Origin: an uncultured Pirellulaceae bacterium
GTDB lineage: Bacteria; Planctomycetota; Planctomycetia; Pirellulales; Pirellulaceae
DNA: 64,000 nucleotides
Direction of reading: 5' to 3'
Assembly: GCA_937928555.1 (NCBI GenBank)
Contig: CALFWR010000035.1
Span: 1-64,000 of the forward strand
Positions 18,924 through 45,800 of the stretch are shown piece after piece. The stretch's first letter is position 1; each line of letters begins with the position of its first letter. The notes under the pieces are model-generated. The model was not told the origin of the DNA, did not search any database, and worked only from the letters and a program-made list of their open reading frames with translations. Position numbers and translations under genes: made by a program.

Positions 18924-19664
18924 CTAGCCGGCGAGCGCCTGCAGCAACGCCTCCAACTCATTGTCGACATCAGCGGCTTGACCGGGATCCGCCATCGTCT
19001 CAGAAACGATATCGACCAGTGCCCTGCGATACTTTTCCTTGAGCCGGTGAGCGGCGACTTTGACTGCGACCGGGGTCATGTTTAATCCGGCGCCGATTGT
19101 TTCGCACTGTTGACTGGTTAGGGGTTCGCCCGTTAGCGTGGGCTGCAATGCATCGTAGAGGTCCGCTTTGCCGGCATCGACATGCCGCTGGCGAAGAACG
19201 GCCAGAGCTTTGGCGAGGACTTCCAGTGCCCAACGCCGGTCAAACAGTTTCTCGGCCGTCCATCCGTCGACCGGTTCGCGCTGGTATCGCTGTTCGGCCA
19301 GATCAATGTCCAGTGAGAAAGTTTGCTTGCCGCCGCCACGTTTCTGCGCGAACTGCCTGGCGGTTTGCTTGTTGACGTAGCGCTGGACTGCGGACATCAG
19401 GAACCAGCGAAAGCGGCCTTTCTCGGGAGCGACTGCGGCCAGAAAGTCCTTGTCGATCAGTTCGACGAAAAAACCTTGAACGTAGTCCGAGGCATCAGAA
19501 GCAGAGTGGCCTTTGCGGCGCAGGTAAACGAACAGCGGATACCAGTAGGACTGGTACAGTTCGCCCAGGGAATGGTTGCGAATATCGGTGTCTTCGTTTC
19601 GGGACGAAGACACGATGCTCCAGTGGGTCGTTTCAAATTCGGAACCGGGGCGAGACTTGTTCAA
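18924..19664 (-). CDS. ECF-type RNA polymerase sigma factor (planctomycete kinase-associated type)
   Basis: FETTHWSIVSSS; SDYVQGFFVELI; MTPVAVKVAAHRLKEKYRRAL; upstream of the kinase. Confidence 0.88.
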   Translation of the reverse strand: MNKSRPGSEFETTHWSIVSSSRNEDTDIRNHSLGELYQSYWYPLFVYLRRKGHSASDASDYVQGFFVELIDKDFLAAVAPEKGRFRWFLMSAVQRYVNKQTARQFAQKRGGGKQTFSLDIDLAEQRYQREPVDGWTAEKLFDRRWALEVLAKALAVLRQRHVDAGKADLYDALQPTLTGEPLTSQQCETIGAGLNMTPVAVKVAAHRLKEKYRRALVDIVSETMADPGQAADVDNELEALLQALAG

Positions 19665-19740
19665 TGAATTCGCTCAGAAGGAATTGGATTCGGTCCAGCA
19701 TATCATTGATGCGGTCGTTCGTCAGTGGATGGCCGGGATC

Positions 19741-20060
19741 CGGGTTCAGACTTTCCACAAGTTGCAGACGTCGGAATCAAACCGGGTTTAGATGTCGATT
19801 CGGATTCAAGCTTTTCACGAATTGCAGACGTCGGAATCAAACCGGGTTTAGATGTCGATTCGGGTTCAAGCTTTCCACAAGTTGCAGACGTCGGAATCGA
19901 ACCGGGTTTAGATGTCGATTCGGGTTCAAGCTTTCCACAAGTTGCAGACGTCGGAATCGAACCGGGTTTAGATGTCGATTCGGATTCAAGCTTTTCACGA
20001 ATTGCAGACGTCGGAATCGAACCGGGTTTAGATGTCGATTCGGGTTCAAGCTTTCCACAA
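19741..20060 (-). repeat. 60-bp tandem repeat, 5 units plus partial, each carrying the tRNA-Met 3' end
   Basis: Period exactly 60; each unit contains (G/A)TTGCAGACGTCGGAATC(G/A)AACCG, matching 20061-20085 inside tRNA-Met. Confidence 0.95.
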
Positions 20061-20061
20061 G

Positions 20062-20131
20062 TTGCAGACGTCGGAATCGAACCGACATTTCCGGGCTTAT
20101 GAGGCCCAGCTGGATAGCCAATCCGTCTGCA
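20062..20131 (-). tRNA. tRNA-Met(CAT)
   Basis: TGCAGAC...GTCTGCA acceptor; GGGCCTCATAAGCCC anticodon arm; TCGGTTCGATTCCGA T-arm. Confidence 0.85.
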
Positions 20132-20148
20132 CAAAACTTCTTTGCTAG

Positions 20149-20235
20149 TGGGTCGCGAAGGAATCGAACCTCTCGCCGCCACCTCAATCATCAAAGGCAC
20201 CTGGTTTACAGCCAGGCATGAGGGACACGACCCAA
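20149..20235 (-). tRNA. tRNA-Tyr(GTA)-like with long variable arm, D-arm apparently truncated
   Basis: GGGTCGT...GCGACCC acceptor; CCTGGCTGTAAACCAGG; only about 10 nt between acceptor and anticodon stems. Confidence 0.6.
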
Positions 20236-20244
20236 TCTGTTTAG

Positions 20245-20328
20245 TGGTTGGAGAGGGATTCGAACCCTCATCGCCATTGCGGCACGGCTTTCTAAGAGCC
20301 GCGTGTCAACCCGTTGCACCATCCAACC
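20245..20328 (-). tRNA. tRNA-Leu(TAG)
   Basis: GGTTGGA...TCCAACCA; CGGCTCTTAGAAAGCCG; long variable arm. Confidence 0.9.
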
Positions 20329-20373
20329 TTATCTTTTTCAGCGTGAAGCCCTGTGGCTTCAAACCTTCATCAG

Positions 20374-20446
20374 TAGCTCGTGTGGGATTCGAACCCAACC
20401 TCTTCAGCTTGAAAAACTGACAGCGTCACCAGACGCCCAACGAGCC
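20374..20446 (-). tRNA. tRNA-Glu(TTC)
   Basis: GGCTCGT...ACGAGCT; TCAGTTTTTCAAGCTGA; TTGGGTTCGAATCCCAC. Confidence 0.85.
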
Positions 20447-20452
20447 AAAAAG

Positions 20453-20525
20453 TCATCCCGGGTGGACTCGAACCACCGATCATCTGCTTGTAAGGCAGCC
20501 GCCTTCGCCGCTAGGCCACGGGACG
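20453..20525 (-). tRNA. tRNA-Val(TAC)
   Basis: CGTCCCG...CGGGATG; CTGCCTTACAAGCAG; GGTGGTTCGAGTCCACC. Confidence 0.85.
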
Positions 20526-20589
20526 ATTGAACACACGGCAATGCCATTGCATCCATTGTCGATGCCAACTCCTTCAACTTTCATGCGAG

Positions 20590-20660
20590 TACCTCACCAA
20601 GGAATCGAACCTTGTCCAACTGTTTCGAAGACAGCCATGCATCCAGCACACCCGCGAGGC
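20590..20660 (-). tRNA. tRNA-Arg(TCG)
   Basis: GCCTCGC...GTGAGGT; GCTGTCTTCGAAACAGT; CAAGGTTCGATTCCTTG. Confidence 0.82.
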
Positions 20661-20669
20661 AAATTGTGA

Positions 20670-20738
20670 TTCAGGGAGAGAGAGTCGAACTCTCGAGACT
20701 TGCTTCAAAGGCAAATCGCCATGCCACTGGATCCCTGA
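20670..20738 (-). tRNA. tRNA-Gln(TTG)
   Basis: TCAGGGA...TCCCTGA; TTGCCTTTGAAGCAA; GAGAGTTCGACTCTC; short D-arm. Confidence 0.8.
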
Positions 20739-20818
20739 GTGACCCATCGGAACAAACATTCCAGCAACTGCCGGAATTCGCAAACCAAACTGCGTCTGAT
20801 TTCAGTCAGTCAGTCAAA

Positions 20819-20894
20819 GCGACCCATACCGGATTTGAACCGGTGTCTTTGCCGTGACAGGGCAATATCAATTGCTGGCTGGACCAATGGGTCG
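20819..20894 (-). tRNA. tRNA-Asp(GTC)
   Basis: CGACCCA...TGGGTCG; TTGCCCTGTCACGGCAA; ACCGGTTCAAATCCGGT. Confidence 0.88.
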
Positions 20895-20901
20895 TAATCA
20901 G

Positions 20902-20972
20902 AGTGCCCTGCGAGAATCGAACTCGCCTGTCCAGGTTGGAAGCCTGGCACCTTACCGATCGGCCAAGAGCAC
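20902..20972 (-). tRNA. tRNA-Gly(TCC)
   Basis: GTGCTCT...AGGGCAC; CCAGGCTTCCAACCTGG; GCGAGTTCGATTCTCGC. Confidence 0.87.
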
Positions 20973-21029
20973 AAAAAGAAACTGACACGGAATTCTTCAC
21001 ACGTCCTGTGAAAAATCCAGTTTTCAACA

Positions 21030-21102
21030 GAGCACCCAGTGGGAGTCGAACCCACACTTCCGCCATGGCAAGGCAGTAGGCTACCGCTACATCATGGGCG
21101 CT
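21030..21102 (-). tRNA. tRNA-Gly(GCC)
   Basis: AGCGCCC...GGGTGCT; CTGCCTTGCCATGGCGG; GTGGGTTCGACTCCCAC. Confidence 0.87.
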
Positions 21103-21120
21103 AAATTTGTTCGTATTCAA

Positions 21121-21306
21121 CCCGGACTATTCACGACGACAGGCGTTGATTCTACGTCTGGCCGACCGGAGCAAGGGAAAAGCTGAATTTCAACGAGAAC
21201 TGCGAATCGTCCGGTAGATGAAAACCACAGCGATCGTTTCATCGCATCAGAGCCGCAACTCACTGTCGGAGCTGATTCCTAACGCCCACGCCTCGTCAAT
21301 AATCCG
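21121..21306 (-). mobile_element. MITE-like element copy C, inside the tRNA array
   Basis: CCCGGACTATTCACGACGACAGGCGTT...AACGCCCACGCCTCGTCAATAATCCG. Confidence 0.85.
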
Positions 21307-21366
21307 TATTCAATTGTCAAAGAACCGTTTGCACTTGCAGAAGTGCAGCTTGCCGTGGGCAAGCAG

Positions 21367-21438
21367 AGCATCGGGAGGGACTCGAACCCTCGTCGCCGGG
21401 TTACAAAGCCGGAATCCTGGCCGCTGGACGACCGATGC
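21367..21438 (-). tRNA. tRNA-Thr(TGT)
   Basis: GCATCGG...CCGATGC; CCGGCTTTGTAACCCGG; GAGGGTTCGAGTCCCTC. Confidence 0.8.
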
Positions 21439-21479
21439 AATTCAAATTGTCAGTTCGAAAACTTTCTACTTGTCTGTAG

Positions 21480-21552
21480 TGGGCTCGGAGGGATTCGAAC
21501 CCTCTCCGATCTGGTTAAGAGCCAGACATGCTGCCAATAACACCTCAAGCCC
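21480..21552 (-). tRNA. tRNA-Lys(CTT)
   Basis: GGGCTTG...CGAGCCCA; TCTGGCTCTTAACCAGA; GAGGGTTCGAATCCCTC. Confidence 0.87.
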
Positions 21553-21600
21553 AGATTCAGTTTTCAGTTTTCAGTTTTCAGTTTTGGGCCGGGCTCAACT

Positions 21601-21648
21601 GCCCCTCCCCGGCGGTGAACCGCCGACCCTCCCAAGGGAGAGGGTGTT
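21601..21648. repeat. REP-like G/C-rich palindromic repeat (second copy near 46184-46234, inverted)
   Basis: GCCCCTCCCCGGCGGTGAACCGCCGACCCTCCCAAGGGAGAGGGTG. Confidence 0.6.
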
Positions 21649-21655
21649 CTTTAAG

Positions 21656-21728
21656 TCGCGTGCGTGGGGATCGAACCCACAGCCTCAGGCTCCCAAAGCC
21701 CACGTGCTCCCAATTGCACCTCCACGCG
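21656..21728 (-). tRNA. tRNA-Pro(TGG)
   Basis: CGCGTGG...GCACGCGA; TGGGCTTTGGGAGCCTG; GTGGGTTCGATCCCCAC. Confidence 0.83.
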
Positions 21729-21771
21729 AGATGTTGTTTCAGTTGTTCCGCATAATGTTGGTTCGAGTGAG

Positions 21772-21843
21772 TGATCCGGGAGGTGCTTGAACCCTCGTCT
21801 TCCCGGCTTCAACGGGACGCTCTACCGTCTGAGCTACCGAATC
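21772..21843 (-). tRNA. tRNA-Phe(GAA)
   Basis: GATTCGG...CCGGATC; TCCCGTTGAAGCCGGGA; atypical T-arm GAGGGTTCAAGCACCTC. Confidence 0.8.
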
Positions 21844-22222: not shown

Positions 22223-23929
22223 ATGGACGAACAATCAACCGCTACCATCGACGAAACACCGAAACGGTCACGGCTTGTGGTTCCGTGGATCATCCTGGTC
22301 ATCGGACTGTTGGCTGTCGTATTACTTCGCGTATTCGATGACTACCTTGGTGACGCAATTGAGCTCGACCCCGGCGTGACGAACCTCGCGACCCTCGCCC
22401 TTCCCTGCTTGGCCGTCGTCTGTGCGAGTCTCTGGTATTTGGTGCGGCGGTTTGGCGTTTCGAAACTTGGGACCGCATTCGCAATACTGTGCATCGCGGC
22501 CCCGGTTGGCTTTTTTGCACTTTACCAACCGGCATTCGGGGGCAACGCGGATGTCGTTGGGTTCAAAGCCAGATACTGGGGCGCGGCAAAGAAAGTCGTT
22601 CAGCGGCAGGCCGAACAGAAGCAGTCGCGGCTTTCGCAAACAACGCCCTTTGATTTTCCGCAATTTCTGGGCAAAGATCGTGATGGCAAAGTCACCGGCG
22701 TGGAATTGCTTCCCTGGAAAGAGGGTCAGCCCGAATTGCTGTGGAAGCAAGCGGTCGGCGATGCTTGGTCAGGGTTTGCCATCGTCAATGGATTCGTCAT
22801 CACCCAAGAACAACGCGATGAACTTGAATGCGTCGTTTGCTACGAAGCCCAAACCGGGAACACCGTTTGGAGCCACGCTGCCAGCCGAAGGCATGAGGAT
22901 TTCATGTCGTTTGGGCGTGTCGGACCGCGTGCGACACCGACAATCCATGAAGGCCGAGTTTACGCGATGGGCGGTACTGGCATTCTCGAATGTCTGGACG
23001 GAGAAACGGGCGATCCAGTTTGGGAGTTCGATGTTCCCGCTGCGGTCGGGATTGATCAGACGCAAAAGACCAACAGCCGCGGACAGGTTTTCCAGCAGGA
23101 GACTTCGACGCTTACCTGGGGACGCTCCAATTCACCGCTGATTGTTGGCTCATGGGTTGTTGTCGCTGCTGGTGGAATATTCGACCCGGCTGGCAAACCG
23201 GTTGATCCAAACGCGGCGACGCTGATCGCGATCGATAAAGGCACAGGGAAAGAGGTCTGGCGCGGCGGGCAGCGGATGGTTTCCTACGGTTCGCCCAGTC
23301 TGGCGACGGTCGCCGGGCGAGAACAGATTTTGCTTGTCGGTGAAGACCACGCCGTCGGTCACGACGCCGCAACCGGCCAGGAGCTTTGGTCGTTTGAGTT
23401 CGAAGGCAACAGCGACTCCAACGCCAGTTGTTCGCAAGTCACGGTCGTCAACGACCATCTGGTTTTGTTGTCCAAGGGCTACAACATTGGAGCGAAGCTG
23501 CTGCGTTTGGAGGACAAGGACGGAGAGCTGACTGTCGAATCGGTCAAAACGGACCCGCGTGTGTTGAAAACAAAGTTCTCCAATCCGGTGGTCCATGATG
23601 GACATGCCTACGCGATCACCGATCGCTTTTTGGAGTGCATCGAGATCGATGGCCTCAACCGCAAGTGGCGACAAAGAGGGTTTGGGACCGGGCAACTATT
23701 GATGGTCGGCGACCATTTGCTTGTCCACGCCGAAGACGGAAAACTTGTTCTTGTTGCGGCAGATCCGGCAAGCTACCAAGAGCGAGGCCGTGTGGAGACC
23801 GTCAGCGGAACCTGCTGGAACACGATTGGGTTTTACAAAGACCTCGCGTTTGTTCGCTCCGACAAGGAGATGGCGTGCTTTCGGCTGCCGATTGGCATCG
23901 ACGAAGGAGCTGACGCGGCCCGGCAATAA
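22223..23929 (+). CDS. PQQ-binding-like beta-propeller protein
   Basis: Single N-terminal TM region then repeated GxxxW blades; DFPQFLGKDRDGKVTG. Confidence 0.88.
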   Translation: MDEQSTATIDETPKRSRLVVPWIILVIGLLAVVLLRVFDDYLGDAIELDPGVTNLATLALPCLAVVCASLWYLVRRFGVSKLGTAFAILCIAAPVGFFALYQPAFGGNADVVGFKARYWGAAKKVVQRQAEQKQSRLSQTTPFDFPQFLGKDRDGKVTGVELLPWKEGQPELLWKQAVGDAWSGFAIVNGFVITQEQRDELECVVCYEAQTGNTVWSHAASRRHEDFMSFGRVGPRATPTIHEGRVYAMGGTGILECLDGETGDPVWEFDVPAAVGIDQTQKTNSRGQVFQQETSTLTWGRSNSPLIVGSWVVVAAGGIFDPAGKPVDPNAATLIAIDKGTGKEVWRGGQRMVSYGSPSLATVAGREQILLVGEDHAVGHDAATGQELWSFEFEGNSDSNASCSQVTVVNDHLVLLSKGYNIGAKLLRLEDKDGELTVESVKTDPRVLKTKFSNPVVHDGHAYAITDRFLECIEIDGLNRKWRQRGFGTGQLLMVGDHLLVHAEDGKLVLVAADPASYQERGRVETVSGTCWNTIGFYKDLAFVRSDKEMACFRLPIGIDEGADAARQ

Positions 23930-23930
23930 C

Positions 23931-24115
23931 CCCGGATTATTCACGAGGCGTGGGCGTCAGAATCAGTTGAGACAGTGATCCGCGACTCTGATGCGATCAA
24001 ACGATTGCTGTGGTTTTCATCTTCCGAATGACTCAATTTTCTTGTTAAAGTTCAGCTTTTCCCTTGCTCCTGTTGGCCAGACGTAGAGTCAACGCCCGTC
24101 GTCGTGAATAATCCG
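23931..24115 (+). mobile_element. MITE-like element copy D
   Basis: CCCGGATTATTCACGAGGCGTGGGCGT...AACGCCCGTCGTCGTGAATAATCCG. Confidence 0.85.
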
Positions 24116-24269
24116 CGATAACATTCGAGTTCATCTCTTTCAAAGGTGGCTCGAACCGGAAACAAGTCGCCTGACGATCTGATTTCGTATGGACATCGCT
24201 ACATGCAGGCGGAAGATTCGCAAGCGATGGTTCTGAAACATTCGGTGGTTTGCATCATTCCCAAAAAAG

Positions 24270-26745: not shown

Positions 26746-26861
26746 TTGGCGAGTCCGGGTTGGCGGTTCTTTCCCAGAATTTTATGGGCATCCGGAAAAC
26801 CGTAGTGGGATTCCCCAGAATTCGGATGGGATACAAAGGAAATTTCGGCAAACCCTATAAA

Positions 26862-27048
26862 CCCGGATTGTTCATGACGACGGGCGTTGATTCTACCTCT
26901 GGCCAACAGAAGCAAGGGGAAAGCTGAAATTCAACAAGAAATTTGAGCCATCCGGTAGATGAAAACCACAGCGATCGTTTCATCGCATCAGAGTCGCGGA
27001 CCACTGTCTCAACTGATTCTGCCGCCCACGCCTCGTGAATAATCCGGG
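26862..27048 (-). mobile_element. MITE-like element copy E
   Basis: CCCGGATTGTTCATGACGACGGGCGTT...CGCCCACGCCTCGTGAATAATCCGGG. Confidence 0.85.
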
Positions 27049-27054
27049 ATAAAA

Positions 27055-27241
27055 CCCGGATTGTTCATGACGACGGGCGTTGATTCTACCTCTGGCCAAC
27101 AGAAGCAAGGGAAAAGCTGAAATTCAACAAGAAATGTAAATCATCCGGTAGATGAAAACCGCAGCGATCGTTTCATCGCATCAGAGTCGCGGACCACTGT
27201 CTCAACTGATTCTAACGCCCACGCCTCGTGAATAATCCGGG
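27055..27241 (-). mobile_element. MITE-like element copy F, in tandem with copy E
   Basis: Near-identical to copy E, 6 bp apart. Confidence 0.85.
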
Positions 27242-27341
27242 ATAAATTCATTGCCGGTGGCAATGGTTTACGCGATGTTCGCCCATCACTAACCCGGATG
27301 GACCTTTCATGCTCCGGATTACCGCTGCTGCTTTTTGTGTA

Positions 27342-28331: not shown

Positions 28332-31300
28332 ATGTCGAAGCGTTTTTTCGGCATGTTGGTTGCTTGTTGCTTCGCTTTTGCGTCGACAGCTGCCAACGCT
28401 GACACACCCTGTGGTTGTGGCCAAGTTGCTGCACCCTGTGGTGATTGCTACGGAAGCTCCGTAGTTAGCCCATTTTCCATGGGCGGAGTTGTATACGACG
28501 GAGCGTCTTCGGGCGTTTCGTACGGCGGCGGAGTTGTCGTTGATGGTGGAGCTGGCATGGCCGGCGGCGCTGTTAGCGGTGGAGCTATCGTCGGCGGTGG
28601 AGAAGTCATCGGCGCAGCTGGTGGAGCAATTGTTGACGGCGGTGCAATCGCTGGCGGCGTTGTCTCTGGCGGCGGATGCTGTGGTCAGTCAGTTCGCTAC
28701 GAAACGCGAACTATCTACCAGAGCCAAATGACAACTCAAATGCGAACTGTTACACGCACTCGTATGCGTACAGAAACTCGCACTCAAAACTATACTGTGA
28801 ACGTACAAGTTCCAGTTCAGCAGACTCAGAACTACACCGTGATGGTGCCTGAGACTCGCTCACGAACTGAGAGCTACACTGTTAACGTTCCTTACACTGA
28901 GAACGTCACTCAGAACTACACAGTGACAGTTCCTGTTCAGCAGACTCGCGAAGAGTCGTTCTCTGTAAGCGTTCCTTACAGCGAGCCAATGACGCAGAAC
29001 TACACTGTTAACGTCCCTTACACTGAGAACGTGACTCAGAACTACACAGTTCAGGTTCCCTACACTGAGAACAGCACTCAGCAATACGAGGTAACCGTTC
29101 CCGTCACAACCATGAAGACTGAGTCTTACGCTGTTCAGGTGCCTTACACCGAGCAGGTTCCTCAGAACTATCAGGTCAGTGTTCCTTACACTGAGATGAC
29201 GACTCAGAACTACTCTGTGAACGTTCCTTACACTGAGAACATGACTCAGCAGTATCAGGTCAGTGTTCCTTACACTGAAATGACAACTCAGAACTATACT
29301 GTTCAGGTTCCTTACACTGACAGCATGACTCAGCAGTACCAAGTCAGCGTTCCTTACCAGGAAATGACGACTCAAAACTACTCTGTCAACGTTCCTTATA
29401 CTGAGAACATGACTCAGCAGTACCAGGTTTCTGTTCCTTACACTGAGAACATCACTCAGTCGTTCCAGGTTCAGGTTCCTTACACTGAGCAAGTTGCACA
29501 GCCTTACACAGTTCAGGTTCCTGTTACCACACAGGTTCCACAGACTTACACGGTAATGGTTCCAACGACTCAGCAGCGAACTGCAACCCGCATGGTTTGC
29601 CAGCCTTACACAGTTACCCGTTACCGCTCACAGTGCGTTGACGCTGGATCATTCCAGACTGTAACTCGTGTTGTTCCTGTCTACAGCAGTGCTCCAGCAG
29701 TTTCTGGTGGCGCTGTCGGTGGCGGAGCCGGATTCGGTGGCGGAGCCGGATTCGGTGGCGGCGGCATTCTCGGCGGCGGCATCCTTGGCGGCGGCGGCGG
29801 TTGTGGCCTTCTTGGCGGCGGCGGTTGTGCTTCACGTTCAAGCTGTGGTTGCTCAAGCTGTGGTTGCACTAGCAGCTGCGGTGGATGTGGCTCTGCTTGT
29901 GGCGGTGGCTGCGGCGGCGGCGGAATCCTCGGCGGCGGCGGAATCCTCGGTGGCGGTGGCCTTCTTGGCGGCGGCATCGGTGGTAGAGTTGCCAGCGGCG
30001 GCGTTGCTGGTGGTGGAGTTGGCGGCGGCTGTGGCTGCGGTCCTTCTTACCAGACTGTCACTTCACGCGTTTACGTTCCACGTCGTGTCATGCAGCAGGT
30101 TCCTTACCAGGTGACTTTGAACCGTCAGGTTCCTCAGTCTTACACGTACAACGTGACTGTTAACGTTCCTCAGACTCAGACTCGTATGGTTGCTTCGACT
30201 TCGTACCGCACTGAAACACGTAACCGCATGGTCACTGTTCAGAAGGTTCGTTGCGAAACACGTACCCGTCAGGTTCCTGTGACTCGTACTCGTCTCGAAA
30301 CCAAGACTCGCACAGTTCCAGTTCAGCGCATGCGTACTGAAACTCGTACTCGTCAGGTTCCTGTGACTCGTACTCGTCTTGAAACCCGTACTCGTACTGT
30401 TCCAGTTCAGAAAGTCCGAACTGAGACTCGCACTCGTCAGGTTCCTGTCACCAAGACAAAGATCGAATCTCGTACTCGTACTGTCGCTGTTCAAAAGTCG
30501 CGTACTGAAACTCGTACTCGTCAAGTTCCTGTAACTCGTACCCGTCTTGAGACTCGCACTCGCAACGTCTCTGTTACAAAGATGCGTACAGAGCAGCGAA
30601 CTCGTCAGGTCCCTGTTCAGAGCACCAAGATCGAGACTCGTACTCGCACTGTTCCAGTAACAAAGATGCGTACAGAGACTCGTCAGCGAACTGTTGCTGT
30701 TCAGAAGTCACGCCAGGAAACACGTACTCGTACTTTCAATGTCACCAAGACCCGTCTTGAGACACGTACTCGTACCGTTCCTTTCACGACTTACAAGACC
30801 GAGACCAAGCAGCGAACTGTTGCTGTTCAAAAGTCGCGTACAGAAACTCGCACTCGCGAAGTTCCTTACACGGTTCAAGTTCCTCAGACTCGTTCTCGAA
30901 CTGTAACTGTGATGACTTGTCAGCCTCAGACTCGTACCCGAACTTTCACAGTTCAGGTTCCTGAGACTTACACTGAGCAAGTTCCTTACCAGGTTTGCAC
31001 ACGCGTTCCAAAGACGATCACTGTTCCTGTAGTCGTCAACGACGGTTGCGGCTGTGCTCCAATGGGTGGCGGAGTTATCAACGGCGGTGCTTCTTTCGGT
31101 GGCCCTGTCATTGATGGCGGAGTCCCAGCGGGCAACGCAGTAATCGATGGTGGTGCAATCATCAACGGCGGTGCTGCGGGTGCAGTTATTGACGGCGGTG
31201 CTGGCGCTTCAGTCATCAGCAGCGGTGCTGCTGCTGGTTTCGCAACAGCTGCTCCAGTCGTAGTCGGCGGTTCTGCTGGTAGCTACGTTGGTGTTGGCGG

Positions 31301-40049: not shown

Positions 40050-40811
40050 ATGGCAGATCAGGCACTGATTCACAAGCTCCAGCAACAGATCGAACGGATC
40101 GAAACCACCTCGCGCGCTGACGACGGTAACACGTTTTCTTCCGGCAGCGCGACCATGGACCGGATGCTTCCGGCGGGCGGTTACCGACGGGGGGCTTTGG
40201 TGGAATGGATCGCGGCTCCCGACAAATCACGCCGCAGATCAAGTTTCAGTGGAGGCTGTGCTGTTGATTTTCTTTCCATGCTCGCTGCGGCGAATGCCTG
40301 TGCCGATGGAGGGGCGTTGGTCATCGCGGATCGCGACTGCCAGTTTTACCCGCCGGCCGCCGCCGCGTTGGGGATTGAGCTTGGCAACGTTGTGGTCATT
40401 CGTCCCGGTGCGGACTTTCGGCGATCAGCCGGAAACCGCCGCTACGATGAAGAGTTTTTTTGGGCGGTTGATCAGTCATTACGCTGCTCTGCCGTCGCTG
40501 CTGTTTGGGTCGCTGCGGCGCACATTGGTGAAAGGTGGTTTCGCCGTTTCCAATTAGCCGCCGAATCCAGCGGCACCGTGGGCTTGTTCGTTCGTCCGCC
40601 ATCGGCGCTGGGCCAGCCTGGTTGGTCGGAGGTGCAGTGGAAAGTCCAACCTGTGCCGAACACTCGCAGTAACGGTCCGGCATCGCGAGCGATTCGTTTG
40701 CAGTTGTTGCGCTGCCACGGCGGCAAGTCCGGCAGTGTCGCTAACCTTCAGATCGATTCAGTCACCGGTGGGTTGAGTACCGAGTACCGAGTACCGAGTA
40801 CTGAGTACTGA
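40050..40811 (+). CDS. imuA: ImuA-like mutasome protein
   Basis: SGSATMDRMLPAGGYRRGALVEWIA; followed by imuB and dnaE2; last 11 codons are within the GAGTACY repeat. Confidence 0.85.
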   Translation: MADQALIHKLQQQIERIETTSRADDGNTFSSGSATMDRMLPAGGYRRGALVEWIAAPDKSRRRSSFSGGCAVDFLSMLAAANACADGGALVIADRDCQFYPPAAAALGIELGNVVVIRPGADFRRSAGNRRYDEEFFWAVDQSLRCSAVAAVWVAAAHIGERWFRRFQLAAESSGTVGLFVRPPSALGQPGWSEVQWKVQPVPNTRSNGPASRAIRLQLLRCHGGKSGSVANLQIDSVTGGLSTEYRVPSTEY

Positions 40812-40816
40812 GTATT
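40775..40816 (+). repeat. Heptamer array (GAGTACY), about 6 units
   Basis: GAGTACC x3, GAGTACT x2, GAGTATT. Confidence 0.95.
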
Positions 40817-40817
40817 C

Positions 40818-40901
40818 CATTCCTCATTCCTCATTCCTCATTCCTCATTCCTCATTCCTCATTCCTCATTCCTCATTCCCCATTCCCCATTCCTCATTCC
40901 C
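40818..40901 (+). repeat. Heptamer array (CATTCCT/C), 12 units
   Basis: CATTCCTCATTCCT...CATTCCCCATTCCC, period 7. Confidence 0.97.
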
Positions 40902-40913
40902 CCACTTGGCATC

Positions 40914-42668
40914 CTGAAAACTTCACACTTCCTCTCCCTCTGGTTTCCCAACTGGCCGATTCAGCGAATCGTCGCCGCGGAGCCCGAGCTGCGCAAAACG
41001 CACTTGGTGCTTTTTTACCGCGACCCGCGCCGGGGCAACCGCGTCGCGGCCGCGTCTCCTTTGGCATCGATCGCCGGAGTGCAAGTTGACATGCCGCTGA
41101 CGGAAGTCAAACAACTGCTGCACCACAGCGGCAAAAAGCAACAAACGTGGACTCATCGCATGCATCCGCGCACCCAACACCAGCAGTTGGCAAAGCACGG
41201 AATCGACTCCGTCGCTCAGCAACCGCGTCACTCCCGCAACCCGCCGACAGGACAGCGATCCCAAAAACTGCCTCGGTCTTCCCACGATTTCGAAAACGGG
41301 TTCTTCATTCTCGAACACGACCCCGTCGCTGACCGCCAAGCCCTAGAACGGCTTGCCGATTCGCTTCACATTTTCAGCCCCATTGTTGGCGTCGAGCAAA
41401 CTGATGCGCCCGAATCGTGCTTTCTGGACATCACCGGCCTGGAAAAGCTTTTCTCAAGCCACGCCAGTCTCCGCGCGCGGGCGATTCGCTTCCTTAAAGA
41501 AAAAGGCTTCACCGTTTTTTCAGCCATCGCCAACACCCCCGGCATGTCCTGGGGTCTGTCGCGTTACCACCCCAGTTCACGTGGCGACGAAGTCCCACCC
41601 GATCAGCTTCGTCGTGACTTTCGCAACCTCCCCGTCGCCGCGCTCAGGCTCCAGCCCGACACGCTCGACACGCTGCATCGCCTGGGCATCCAGACCATCG
41701 CCCAGTTGGTTTCCATCCCCCGCTCCCACCTGACATCTCGCTTCGGCGACGAATTGAATACGCGGATCGACCAGGCTTGGGGTAAAACCGAAGAACCCAT
41801 CGTCGCCCGCCACCGCCCTGCCGAATTTTCCGCCCGGCAGTTTATCGAATTTCCAACACGCGACCGCGAAACCATCAGCGTGATTCTTTCCCGTCTGCTC
41901 AGCGACATCTGCAAGCAACTCGTCGCCCGCCAAAAAGGAGCACTGCAATGGACGATTGGCCTGGACTGCGTCGACGCACCGACGATCGAATTCAAAGTCA
42001 ATCTTTTTCAGCCCACCGCCACCGTCGAACACGTGATGCAACTGGTGGAGCTTCAGTTGGAATCAGTTCTCAAGCCTTACCTTCGCGGCAAGCGAAAGAA
42101 AACCGACAGTAAGTCCAACGTGGCTCGAACCGTGACTAACATTTTGGTCCAGGAGATTACGGTGCGGGTGACTTCCTGCGTGTTATTGGTGGACCGACAG
42201 AAGCAGCTTTTCGACGAAAGCCCACGGCTGGACAAGCGATCTTTGGCTCACCTGATCAACCATCTGACCAGCCGCCTTGGCCAGGACAGTATTGTTTATC
42301 CGACACTGCAATCGGGTGCCCAACCGGAGCATTCTTTTCGCTTCAAGCCACTTGTTGATCCGCTGCGGATGCGGACGCGAAAGCGACAGATCACTCGCGA
42401 TCGTTCGCACAAACTCGCCCGTCCGTTTCGCTTGCTCGAACCGGTTTTAATCGCCGACCGGCCCGTCGCGCTGCCATTTTCGTTTCGCCATCAGGACGTT
42501 TGGCACTCGGTCGTCCAGCACTGGGGGCCCGAGCGTATCGAAACCGGCTGGTGGCACGGTCCGACGACTCGCCGCGACTACTGGCGCGTCGCCTCAGACA
42601 CCGGTCAGCACTTTTGGGTCTACTTCGATATCTGCCGCAAGAGGTGGTTTTTGCAGGGAGAGTTCTGA
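40914..42668 (+). CDS. imuB: ImuB, Y-family DNA polymerase-like mutasome protein (start codon uncertain)
   Basis: [35 protein letters not shown] begins upstream of ORF-track start 41004; [38 protein letters not shown]. Confidence 0.85.
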
Positions 42669-42736
42669 GTACCGAGTACCGAGTACCGAGTACTGAGTAC
42701 TGAGTACTGAGTACTGAGTTCTGAGTTCTGAGTTCT
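42660..42736 (+). repeat. Heptamer array (GAGTACY/GAGTTCT), 11 units
   Basis: GAGTTCT GAGTACC x3 GAGTACT x4 GAGTTCT x3. Confidence 0.95.
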
Positions 42737-42764
42737 GAATGTTCAGTTTCCATTCCCCAGGCTG

Positions 42765-42890
42765 CATTCCCAATTCCCAATTCCCAATTCCCAATTCCCA
42801 ATTCCCAATTCCCAATTCCCAATTCCCAATTCCCAATTCCCAATTCCCAATTCCCAATTCCCAATTCCCAATTCCCAATTCCCAATTCCC
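42765..42890 (+). repeat. Heptamer array (AATTCCC), 18 units, abutting the dnaE2 ATG
   Basis: CATTCCCAATTCCC... 126 nt, period 7. Confidence 0.97.
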
Positions 42891-45800
42891 ATGTTCTCCG
42901 AACTCCACTGCAAAACAAACTTCTCCTTCCTCGCTGGCGGATCGCATGCTGACGAACTGGTTGCCACTGCTGTCGAACTGGGCTACTCCGCCCTGGCTGT
43001 CACTGACCAGAACACCCTCGCCGGTGTCGTCCGCGCTTACTCCGCTATCCGCGACATCCAAAGAACGCTCGACACCGAAAACCGGGCCGCCCACAATCTG
43101 AAACTGATCATCGGCGCCGAAATCGTCCTCAAAGATGGCCTTCCGGTCGTCCTCTGGGCGACCGACCGTGCGGCCTACGCCAACCTTTCCACGCTTCTGA
43201 CTGTCGGGCGCCGCCGGGCCCCCAAAGGTGAATGCTGGTTGAACTTCCAGGACATCGCTGACCACCACCAGGGCCTGCTCGCCGGTGTCGTTCCCTTCCT
43301 TCCCGGTGACACCCCGCGGATGGCTCACGTTGATTCCACCCACCCCAGCTACCGGTGGTTCGGCTGCGACCCCAGGCATCAAACTGACCAGGCCATGAAA
43401 GCCTTCGCCAAACGAAACCTCCACTCTCCGGTGCACCAGTACGATGCTTACCGCGAAGTCTTCGGCGACCGCGCCCACCTGCTGGCCAGCCTCTACAAAG
43501 GCATCGATGACCGTTGGCGAATCGAACAACTTCGCTCCATCGCCACGCAGCACAACCTCGCACCGGTTGCCGCCGGTGACGTTCTCTATCACAAGCCCGC
43601 CCGCATGCCGCTGCACGACGTCCTGACCGCGATTCGTCACCGCACCACCGTTCCGCTGGCCGGCGACCTTCGCATCGCCAACTCACACCGCCACCTCCAG
43701 TCCATCACCCGCCGCCAGCAGCAATTTTCACTGTTGCCCGAATCGATCGCCAACGCAAACCACATCGCCAGCCAATGCAGCTTCGACCTTGGGCAACTGC
43801 GTTACGAATACCCGCGCGAACTGGCTCCCGATGGCCAACAGCCGATCGACTACCTCCGCGAACTGGTCCGGAAAGGCTCCCGCTGGCGATACCCCAATGG
43901 CGTTCCCAAGAAAGTCTGCGACCAGATCCGCCACGAGATGGGCTTGATCCATGAACTGAACTACGAAGCCTACTTCCTGACCGTCTGGGACCTCGTTCGT
44001 TTCGCCCGCAGTCGCGACATCCTCTGCCAAGGCCGCGGCTCTGCGGCGAACTCCGCCGTCTGCTACGTCCTTGGCATCACCTCGGTCGATCCCGACACCA
44101 CCGACCTTCTCTTCGAACGTTTTATCAGCAGAGAACGCGACGAAGCCCCCGACATCGATGTCGATTTTGAACACGAGCGTCGCGAAGAAGTCCTCCAGTA
44201 CCTTTACGAAAAATACGGCCGCGACCGCGCTGGCCTAGCCGCGACGGTGATAACTTACCGCAGTCGCAGCGCCATCCGCGACGTCGGCAAAGCCCTTGGG
44301 TTGTCACTTGACCGCGTTGACGCACTGGCCAAACAGGTCGACGGCTACCGCAACGTCGACGACCTCCAGAGCCGCTGCGAAATTGTTGGCATCGATCCGA
44401 ACTCGCAACAGGGAAGCCGCCTCTGTCATCTGGTCAACGAAATTCTGGGCTTTCCTCGCCACCTGTCGCAGCACGTCGGCGGGATGGTGATGACCGAAGG
44501 CAAGCTTCACGAACTGGTGCCGATCGAAAACGCTGCGATGGAAAACCGCACCGTGATCCAGTGGGATAAAAACGACCTGGAAGAATTGGGCCTGCTCAAA
44601 GTCGACTGTCTGTGCCTTGGCATGCTGTCCGCGATCCGCAAATGCTTTGCGATGGTCAAATCTCACTGGGGCGACGAGCTAACCCTGGCCAACATTCCCC
44701 AGGAAGACCCCGTGGTCTACGACATGATCTGTGACGCCGACACCGTGGGCGTGTTTCAGATCGAAAGCCGAGGCCAGATGAGCATGCTGCCGCGTCTCAA
44801 GCCACGAACGTGGTACGACCTTGTGATCGAAGTCGCGATCGTGCGGCCGGGTCCGATCCAGGGCAACATGGTGCATCCGTTTTTGCGTCGTCGTAACGGA
44901 GACGAAGAAGTCACCTATCCCAACGAAGCCATCAAAGCGGTTCTACATCGAACGCTCGGAGTGCCGATCTTCCAGGAACAAGCCATGAAACTGGCTGTCG
45001 TCGCTGCGGGTTTCACGCCCGGTGAAGCCGATCAACTCCGCCGCGCGATGGGTGCGTGGCGAAAGACCGGAGTCATCGACAAATTCCAACACAAGCTGAT
45101 GGACGGGATGGCGAAAAATGGGCTCTCTGGCGAATTCGCCCAGCAGGTGTTCCGGCAAATCCGGGGCTTCGGCGAGTACGGCTTTCCTGAATCTCACGCC
45201 GCCAGTTTCGCACTGCTGGTTTACGTTTCCTCGTTTCTCAAGTGTTACTACCCGGCTGCGTTTTGCGCCTCGTTGATCAACAGCCAGCCGATGGGCTTTT
45301 ACCCACCCGCCCAGTTGATCTCCGACGCCCGCCGCCACGACGTGGAAATCCTCCCCGTCGACGTCAATCACAGCGACCGGGACTGTACTCTTGAACGCGG
45401 CGAAAACGGAATCGACTGGGCGGTGCGAATGGGCCTGCGAATGATCTCGGGCATGCGAATGAACGTCGCCGAACTGATCCTGGACGCACGCCAAAACGGA
45501 GACTTTGCCAGCATGGTAGACTTCACCCGCCGCACCGGACTGGGACAAGCCACCATCGCGACGCTCAGCAAAGCCGACGCGTTTGGGTCGGTCAATCAGG
45601 ACCGCCGCCAGGCCCTGTGGCAGGCTTTGGCTCAGGAAAAGAAACCCCAGCATCAACCGCTGTTCTCGGGGCTTGACGACCAGGACGACAACGCGGCTTA
45701 CCTTCCGGACCTCACGCCGCAGCAGCAAGTCACCGAAGACTACCGCACGGTGGGCCTGTCACTGCGCGCCCACCCGGTGTCGTTTCACCGTGATTCACTG

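Follow-up and report, generated by a model that had tools for sequence, protein, structure and literature searches.

The closest described system to the locus presented here is the tyrT-tyrV rtT (rttR) region of Escherichia coli K-12: in strain MG1655 (NC_000913.3), three repeats occur at a 178-bp spacing, the last one running into tyrV, and the rttR RNA is annotated there. RtT RNA has been tied to amino-acid limitation in passages of a secondary source (PMC4986893), and no further tRNA-tail tandem arrays were found in the literature searched, which mostly does not cover the classic papers. Degenerate tRNA clusters are also relevant, and are of a kind reported for many planctomycetes (PMC4807772), as are bacterial minisatellites, or VNTRs. 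Here, these systems are compared with a short-unit array lying beside a tRNA cluster of an uncultured Pirellulaceae bacterium, in a window of 64,000 nucleotides (the whole stretch of DNA that was analysed).

A 60-bp array starting inside a tRNA-Met gene

The array is built of highly similar units of one fixed length, arranged head to tail, with a spacing of exactly 60 nt throughout (repeat search), 93% matches and no indels (TRF). On the minus strand, each unit is made of CGGTTYGATTCCGACGTCTGCAA (23 nt), corresponding to the final 23 nt of the tRNA-Met gene and ending at its discriminator base, followed by a 37-nt spacer. Full units are identical at 55 to 60 of their 60 positions when compared pairwise (92–100%), and the tRNA tail is reproduced exactly in three of the five extra copies, the T-loop substitution being restricted to the two distal ones. 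Chance similarity is ruled out as the source of the repeats by this exact period and unit identity, a repeated exact 22-mer being expected only about 1e-4 times in 64 kb.

The 60-bp repeats with the tRNA-Met 3' end in each unit, as described by a previous sequence-only reading, are therefore real, with five extra tails at constant spacing. Their placement immediately 3' of tRNA-Met holds for these five copies, but the array itself starts inside the gene, because the gene itself supplies the initial copy of the repeat, and a partial sixth spacer closes the far end.

Table 1. Features of the tRNA-Met locus, with positions in the window.
Feature	Coordinates	Strand	Evidence or remark
Gene for an ECF-type sigma factor, immediately downstream of the array	18924..19664	-	Pfam Sigma70_ECF at E 9.9e-4, slightly short of the cut-off
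60-bp tandem array, 5.8 copies, starting within the tRNA-Met 3' end	19737..20084	-	TRF score 605; repeat search
Diverged partial sixth spacer, closing the array	19737..19761	-	3 additional differences within the unit's first 48 nt
Extra tRNA 3'-end copy 5, T-loop C->T	19762..19784	-	Sequence comparison
Extra tRNA 3'-end copy 4, T-loop C->T	19822..19844	-	Sequence comparison
Extra tRNA 3'-end copy 3, identical to tRNA tail	19882..19904	-	Sequence comparison
Extra tRNA 3'-end copy 2, identical to tRNA tail	19942..19964	-	Sequence comparison
Extra tRNA 3'-end copy 1, identical to tRNA tail	20002..20024	-	Sequence comparison
tRNA-Met (CAT), closing the cluster; no encoded 3' CCA; its final 23 nt serve as the first repeat copy	20062..20131	-	ARAGORN; Rfam tRNA; covariation
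Host cluster: 13 ARAGORN tRNA genes and an unlisted tRNA-Tyr-like gene (about 14)	about 20062..21843	-	ARAGORN; Rfam

The host cluster, its neighbours and the distribution of the array

The tRNA-Met gene scores 28.9 bits against the Rfam tRNA model, just below the cut-off, and is a "degenerate" tRNA under structural constraint, whose stems covary strongly: in an alignment of nine distinct relatives' sequences, which takes in four hand-cut sequences from loci without an ARAGORN tRNA-Met call, 97.5% of the cells pair, changes on both sides are found in 12 of the 22 pairs, and none of 500 shuffles reaches this level. The D-loop of the cluster's tRNA-Met is only 4–5 nt long, and the T-loop lacks TTC in three of the relatives' sequences (alignment A1). 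Many low-scoring tRNAs (24.6–61 bits in Rfam) are clustered beside a canonical dispersed set, as the dispersed tRNAs of the same genome mostly score higher, up to 77.5 bits, and similar clusters with the same tRNA-Met occur in several genomes of the genus. The tRNA-Tyr-like gene (anticodon GTA, about 20149–20235) was missed by ARAGORN, and Rfam gives only a weak tRNA-Sec match there.

Other repeats are found in the window and beyond. A dispersed repeat of about 190 bp, apparently a MITE-like element or an interspersed element of another kind, occurs at 21118–21310 (inside the tRNA cluster), 23916–24119 (inverted), 26859–27051 and 27052–27244; it is present in high copy number, with at least 42 matches (40 scored of 740 first-look candidates in the genome), full-length copies being 88–92% identical among the matches listed. 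Tandem arrays of a 7-bp unit (up to 18 copies) lie at 40775–40900 and 42660–42891, and also between tRNA genes of related genomes (clusters L054, L057 and L058), while the long 42/84-bp repeats detected by TRF at 28866–29489 and 30254–30683 probably code for repetitive proteins.

The array ends 72 bp before the start of the sigma factor gene, on the same strand. In relatives, this gene is not beside the tRNA cluster: in the two nearest genomes, G015 and G025, both its ortholog and the downstream kinase gene are located elsewhere, and in G025 tRNA-Met is followed by further tRNAs, which suggests that the array lies at a junction rearranged in this lineage. Among named sequences, the neighbouring kinase is matched best by one from an uncultured Pirellulaceae MAG (59% identity), which places the genome in the Pirellulaceae or close to it. 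The minus strand showed no terminator-like site from tRNA-Met to the sigma gene, so that read-through from tRNA-Met may be possible.

The array occurs once in its genome. It was not found in 27 other genomes of the genus, G015 and G025 included, where only the single tRNA tail was matched, and inspection of the 3' flanks in G015, G025, G014 and G012 revealed no second tail 3' of tRNA-Met. A pattern of three T-loop motifs 36–66 bases apart, a spacing too close for whole tRNAs, matched this genome alone among 398 genomes of the order and 395 of the phylum, two samples with a slight overlap; arrays of longer period, or with other T-loops, would escape this pattern. A search of plasmid records gave no match. 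The earlier reading had asked whether the units are conserved among relatives sharing the array; what stands is that the array is absent from every relative compared, with no array-sharing relative among them.

Origin of the array and competing explanations

We consider it quite probable that the array is a lineage-specific minisatellite that arose through slippage or unequal exchange. The spacers were all copied from a single sequence, in two types, A and B, that differ by four substitutions and are ordered A, B, A, A, B, A' from the tRNA, the most diverged unit being the distal one, farthest from the tRNA. Type B is identical in units 2 and 5, which are not adjacent, and block copying is therefore needed to account for its spread. 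Judged from the sequence, recurring variants and a diverged distal unit are the pattern expected of tandem-duplication turnover with later block exchange, and other tandem repeats abound in this genome and in its relatives (TRF).

We infer the following course, and with it an absence of function. A 60-bp segment comprising the final 23 nt of tRNA-Met and 37 nt of its 3' flank would have been duplicated in tandem by slippage or short-homology exchange, then expanded to 5.8 copies by multi-unit unequal exchange. The tRNA 3' end would be repeated because it lies inside the duplicated segment, and the real tRNA-Met would stay intact because the first copy completes the gene. The array would now sit at the present end of the degenerate planctomycete tRNA cluster, at a synteny break before the ECF sigma gene, and if the cluster is transcribed, the units of the array would be trimmed away as a 3' trailer. 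A native 3' flank in common with G025, AAAAGCTTG, is weakly supported (p 0.005 for type B, 0.04 for type A). The possibility that the spacer holds an inverted T-arm remnant was also considered and set aside as weak (best result among four tests: p 0.004 with type B and 0.07 with type A).

Could the units nevertheless act as RNA? The array might be an rtT-like element, transcribed with the cluster and trimmed to repeat RNAs, which would serve as small RNAs or as ligands of tRNA 3'-end enzymes. The layout is that of E. coli tyrV/rttR, where every repeat includes the 3' end of the tRNA and there is an annotated RNA, the link of that RNA with amino-acid limitation points in the same direction, and the minus strand is free of terminator-like sites as far as the sigma gene. 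We nonetheless regard this explanation as unlikely, since the array is not conserved in the genus, order or phylum samples, the Rfam RtT family gives no match even at E 5 (and no other Rfam family reaches its gathering score in the array), and the T-stem is broken. The extra tails lack the 5' acceptor strand and keep only three of the five bases of the 5' T-stem strand (CGG, from GTCGG in the tRNA and CCCGG in the units), and hence cannot form the T-arm/acceptor unit seen by tRNA 3'-end enzymes. The units and the array fold no better than shuffled sequences (z-scores -0.9 to +0.5), and a structured RNA in the units was rejected on this ground; the earlier proposal of decoy 3' ends, deprived of two of the five T-stem bases and of any unusual fold, is weakened and finds no support. 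The tRNA-end part is not depleted in variable sites (1 of 22) relative to the spacer (4 of 38; p 0.64, for few sites and with little power), so it shows no sign of constraint. A protein-coding array was rejected, with no Pfam match and ORFs that run through the tRNA genes; three to four of the six frames are open across the array because 60 is a multiple of 3.

The array separates the cluster from the sigma gene, shares their strand and stops a short distance before the start of that gene, with no terminator-like site in between; this position may also recall a contingency repeat, that is, a variable spacer or leader that would tune read-through from the tRNA cluster into the ECF sigma gene. 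This is improbable, as this genome alone has the arrangement and the sigma gene of relatives lies elsewhere. Even less probable is an assembly artefact: the genome is a draft of 168 contigs, so the copy number may be misassembled, and the 348-bp array exceeds typical short reads, but the differences between units are orderly (A/B spacers, C/T in the T-loop), both flanks are unique and the array is mid-contig. Least likely of all are tandem att sites left as scars of repeated site-specific integration and excision, one form that the previously suggested traces of recombination could take. Integrases commonly target tRNA 3' ends and each unit has 23 nt of tRNA tail, but separate integrations would leave different DNA, whereas a single 37-nt sequence is copied in every spacer, and none of the nine integrase-domain matches of the genome is on the contig of the array. 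Tandem duplication is the best fit.

Taken together, these results make the array look like a recent tandem duplication of an ordinary kind and not like a novel RNA device, and, by itself, it most likely reflects neutral turnover beside a tRNA cluster.

Comparison with known systems

The parallel with E. coli tyrT drawn by the sequence-only reading is apt, as the MG1655 repeats likewise carry the tRNA 3' end: in both loci, head-to-tail repeats are found directly 3' of a tRNA gene and start inside its 3' end. The units here are indeed shorter and more numerous (60 bp and 5.8 copies, against a 178-bp period and about three copies), the tRNA is a different one, there is no match in sequence or to the Rfam RtT covariance model, and the array is known from DNA alone. 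The array is thus not a member of the RtT family and works like a trailer minisatellite, while representing a second, independent case of the rtT layout, in a phylum distant from that of E. coli, with a unit that is much shorter. Do tRNA 3' ends favour tandem duplication? This second case makes it possible to ask the question, and by analogy with E. coli, a duplicated piece starting neatly in a tRNA 3' end could hint at a bias towards such ends, a point that counts against the minisatellite reading. We give only a small chance to a stronger version, in which the array would be an independently arisen rtT-like locus, seeded by a tRNA 3' end, whose trailer repeats would be processed to tRNA-tail RNAs that bind tRNA 3'-end enzymes or tune the sigma gene.

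The host cluster resembles those of other planctomycetes in its dense low-scoring tRNAs beside a dispersed canonical set, and such clusters recur in relatives; in contrast, tRNA-tail arrays go unmentioned in the accessible part of PMC4807772. With bacterial minisatellites and VNTRs, the array shares a fixed unit length, high identity, variants common to blocks of units, a diverged edge unit and a restriction to one lineage. Their copy number varies between strains, while the present array is known from one genome, and it differs from them in that its unit contains functional tRNA gene sequence.
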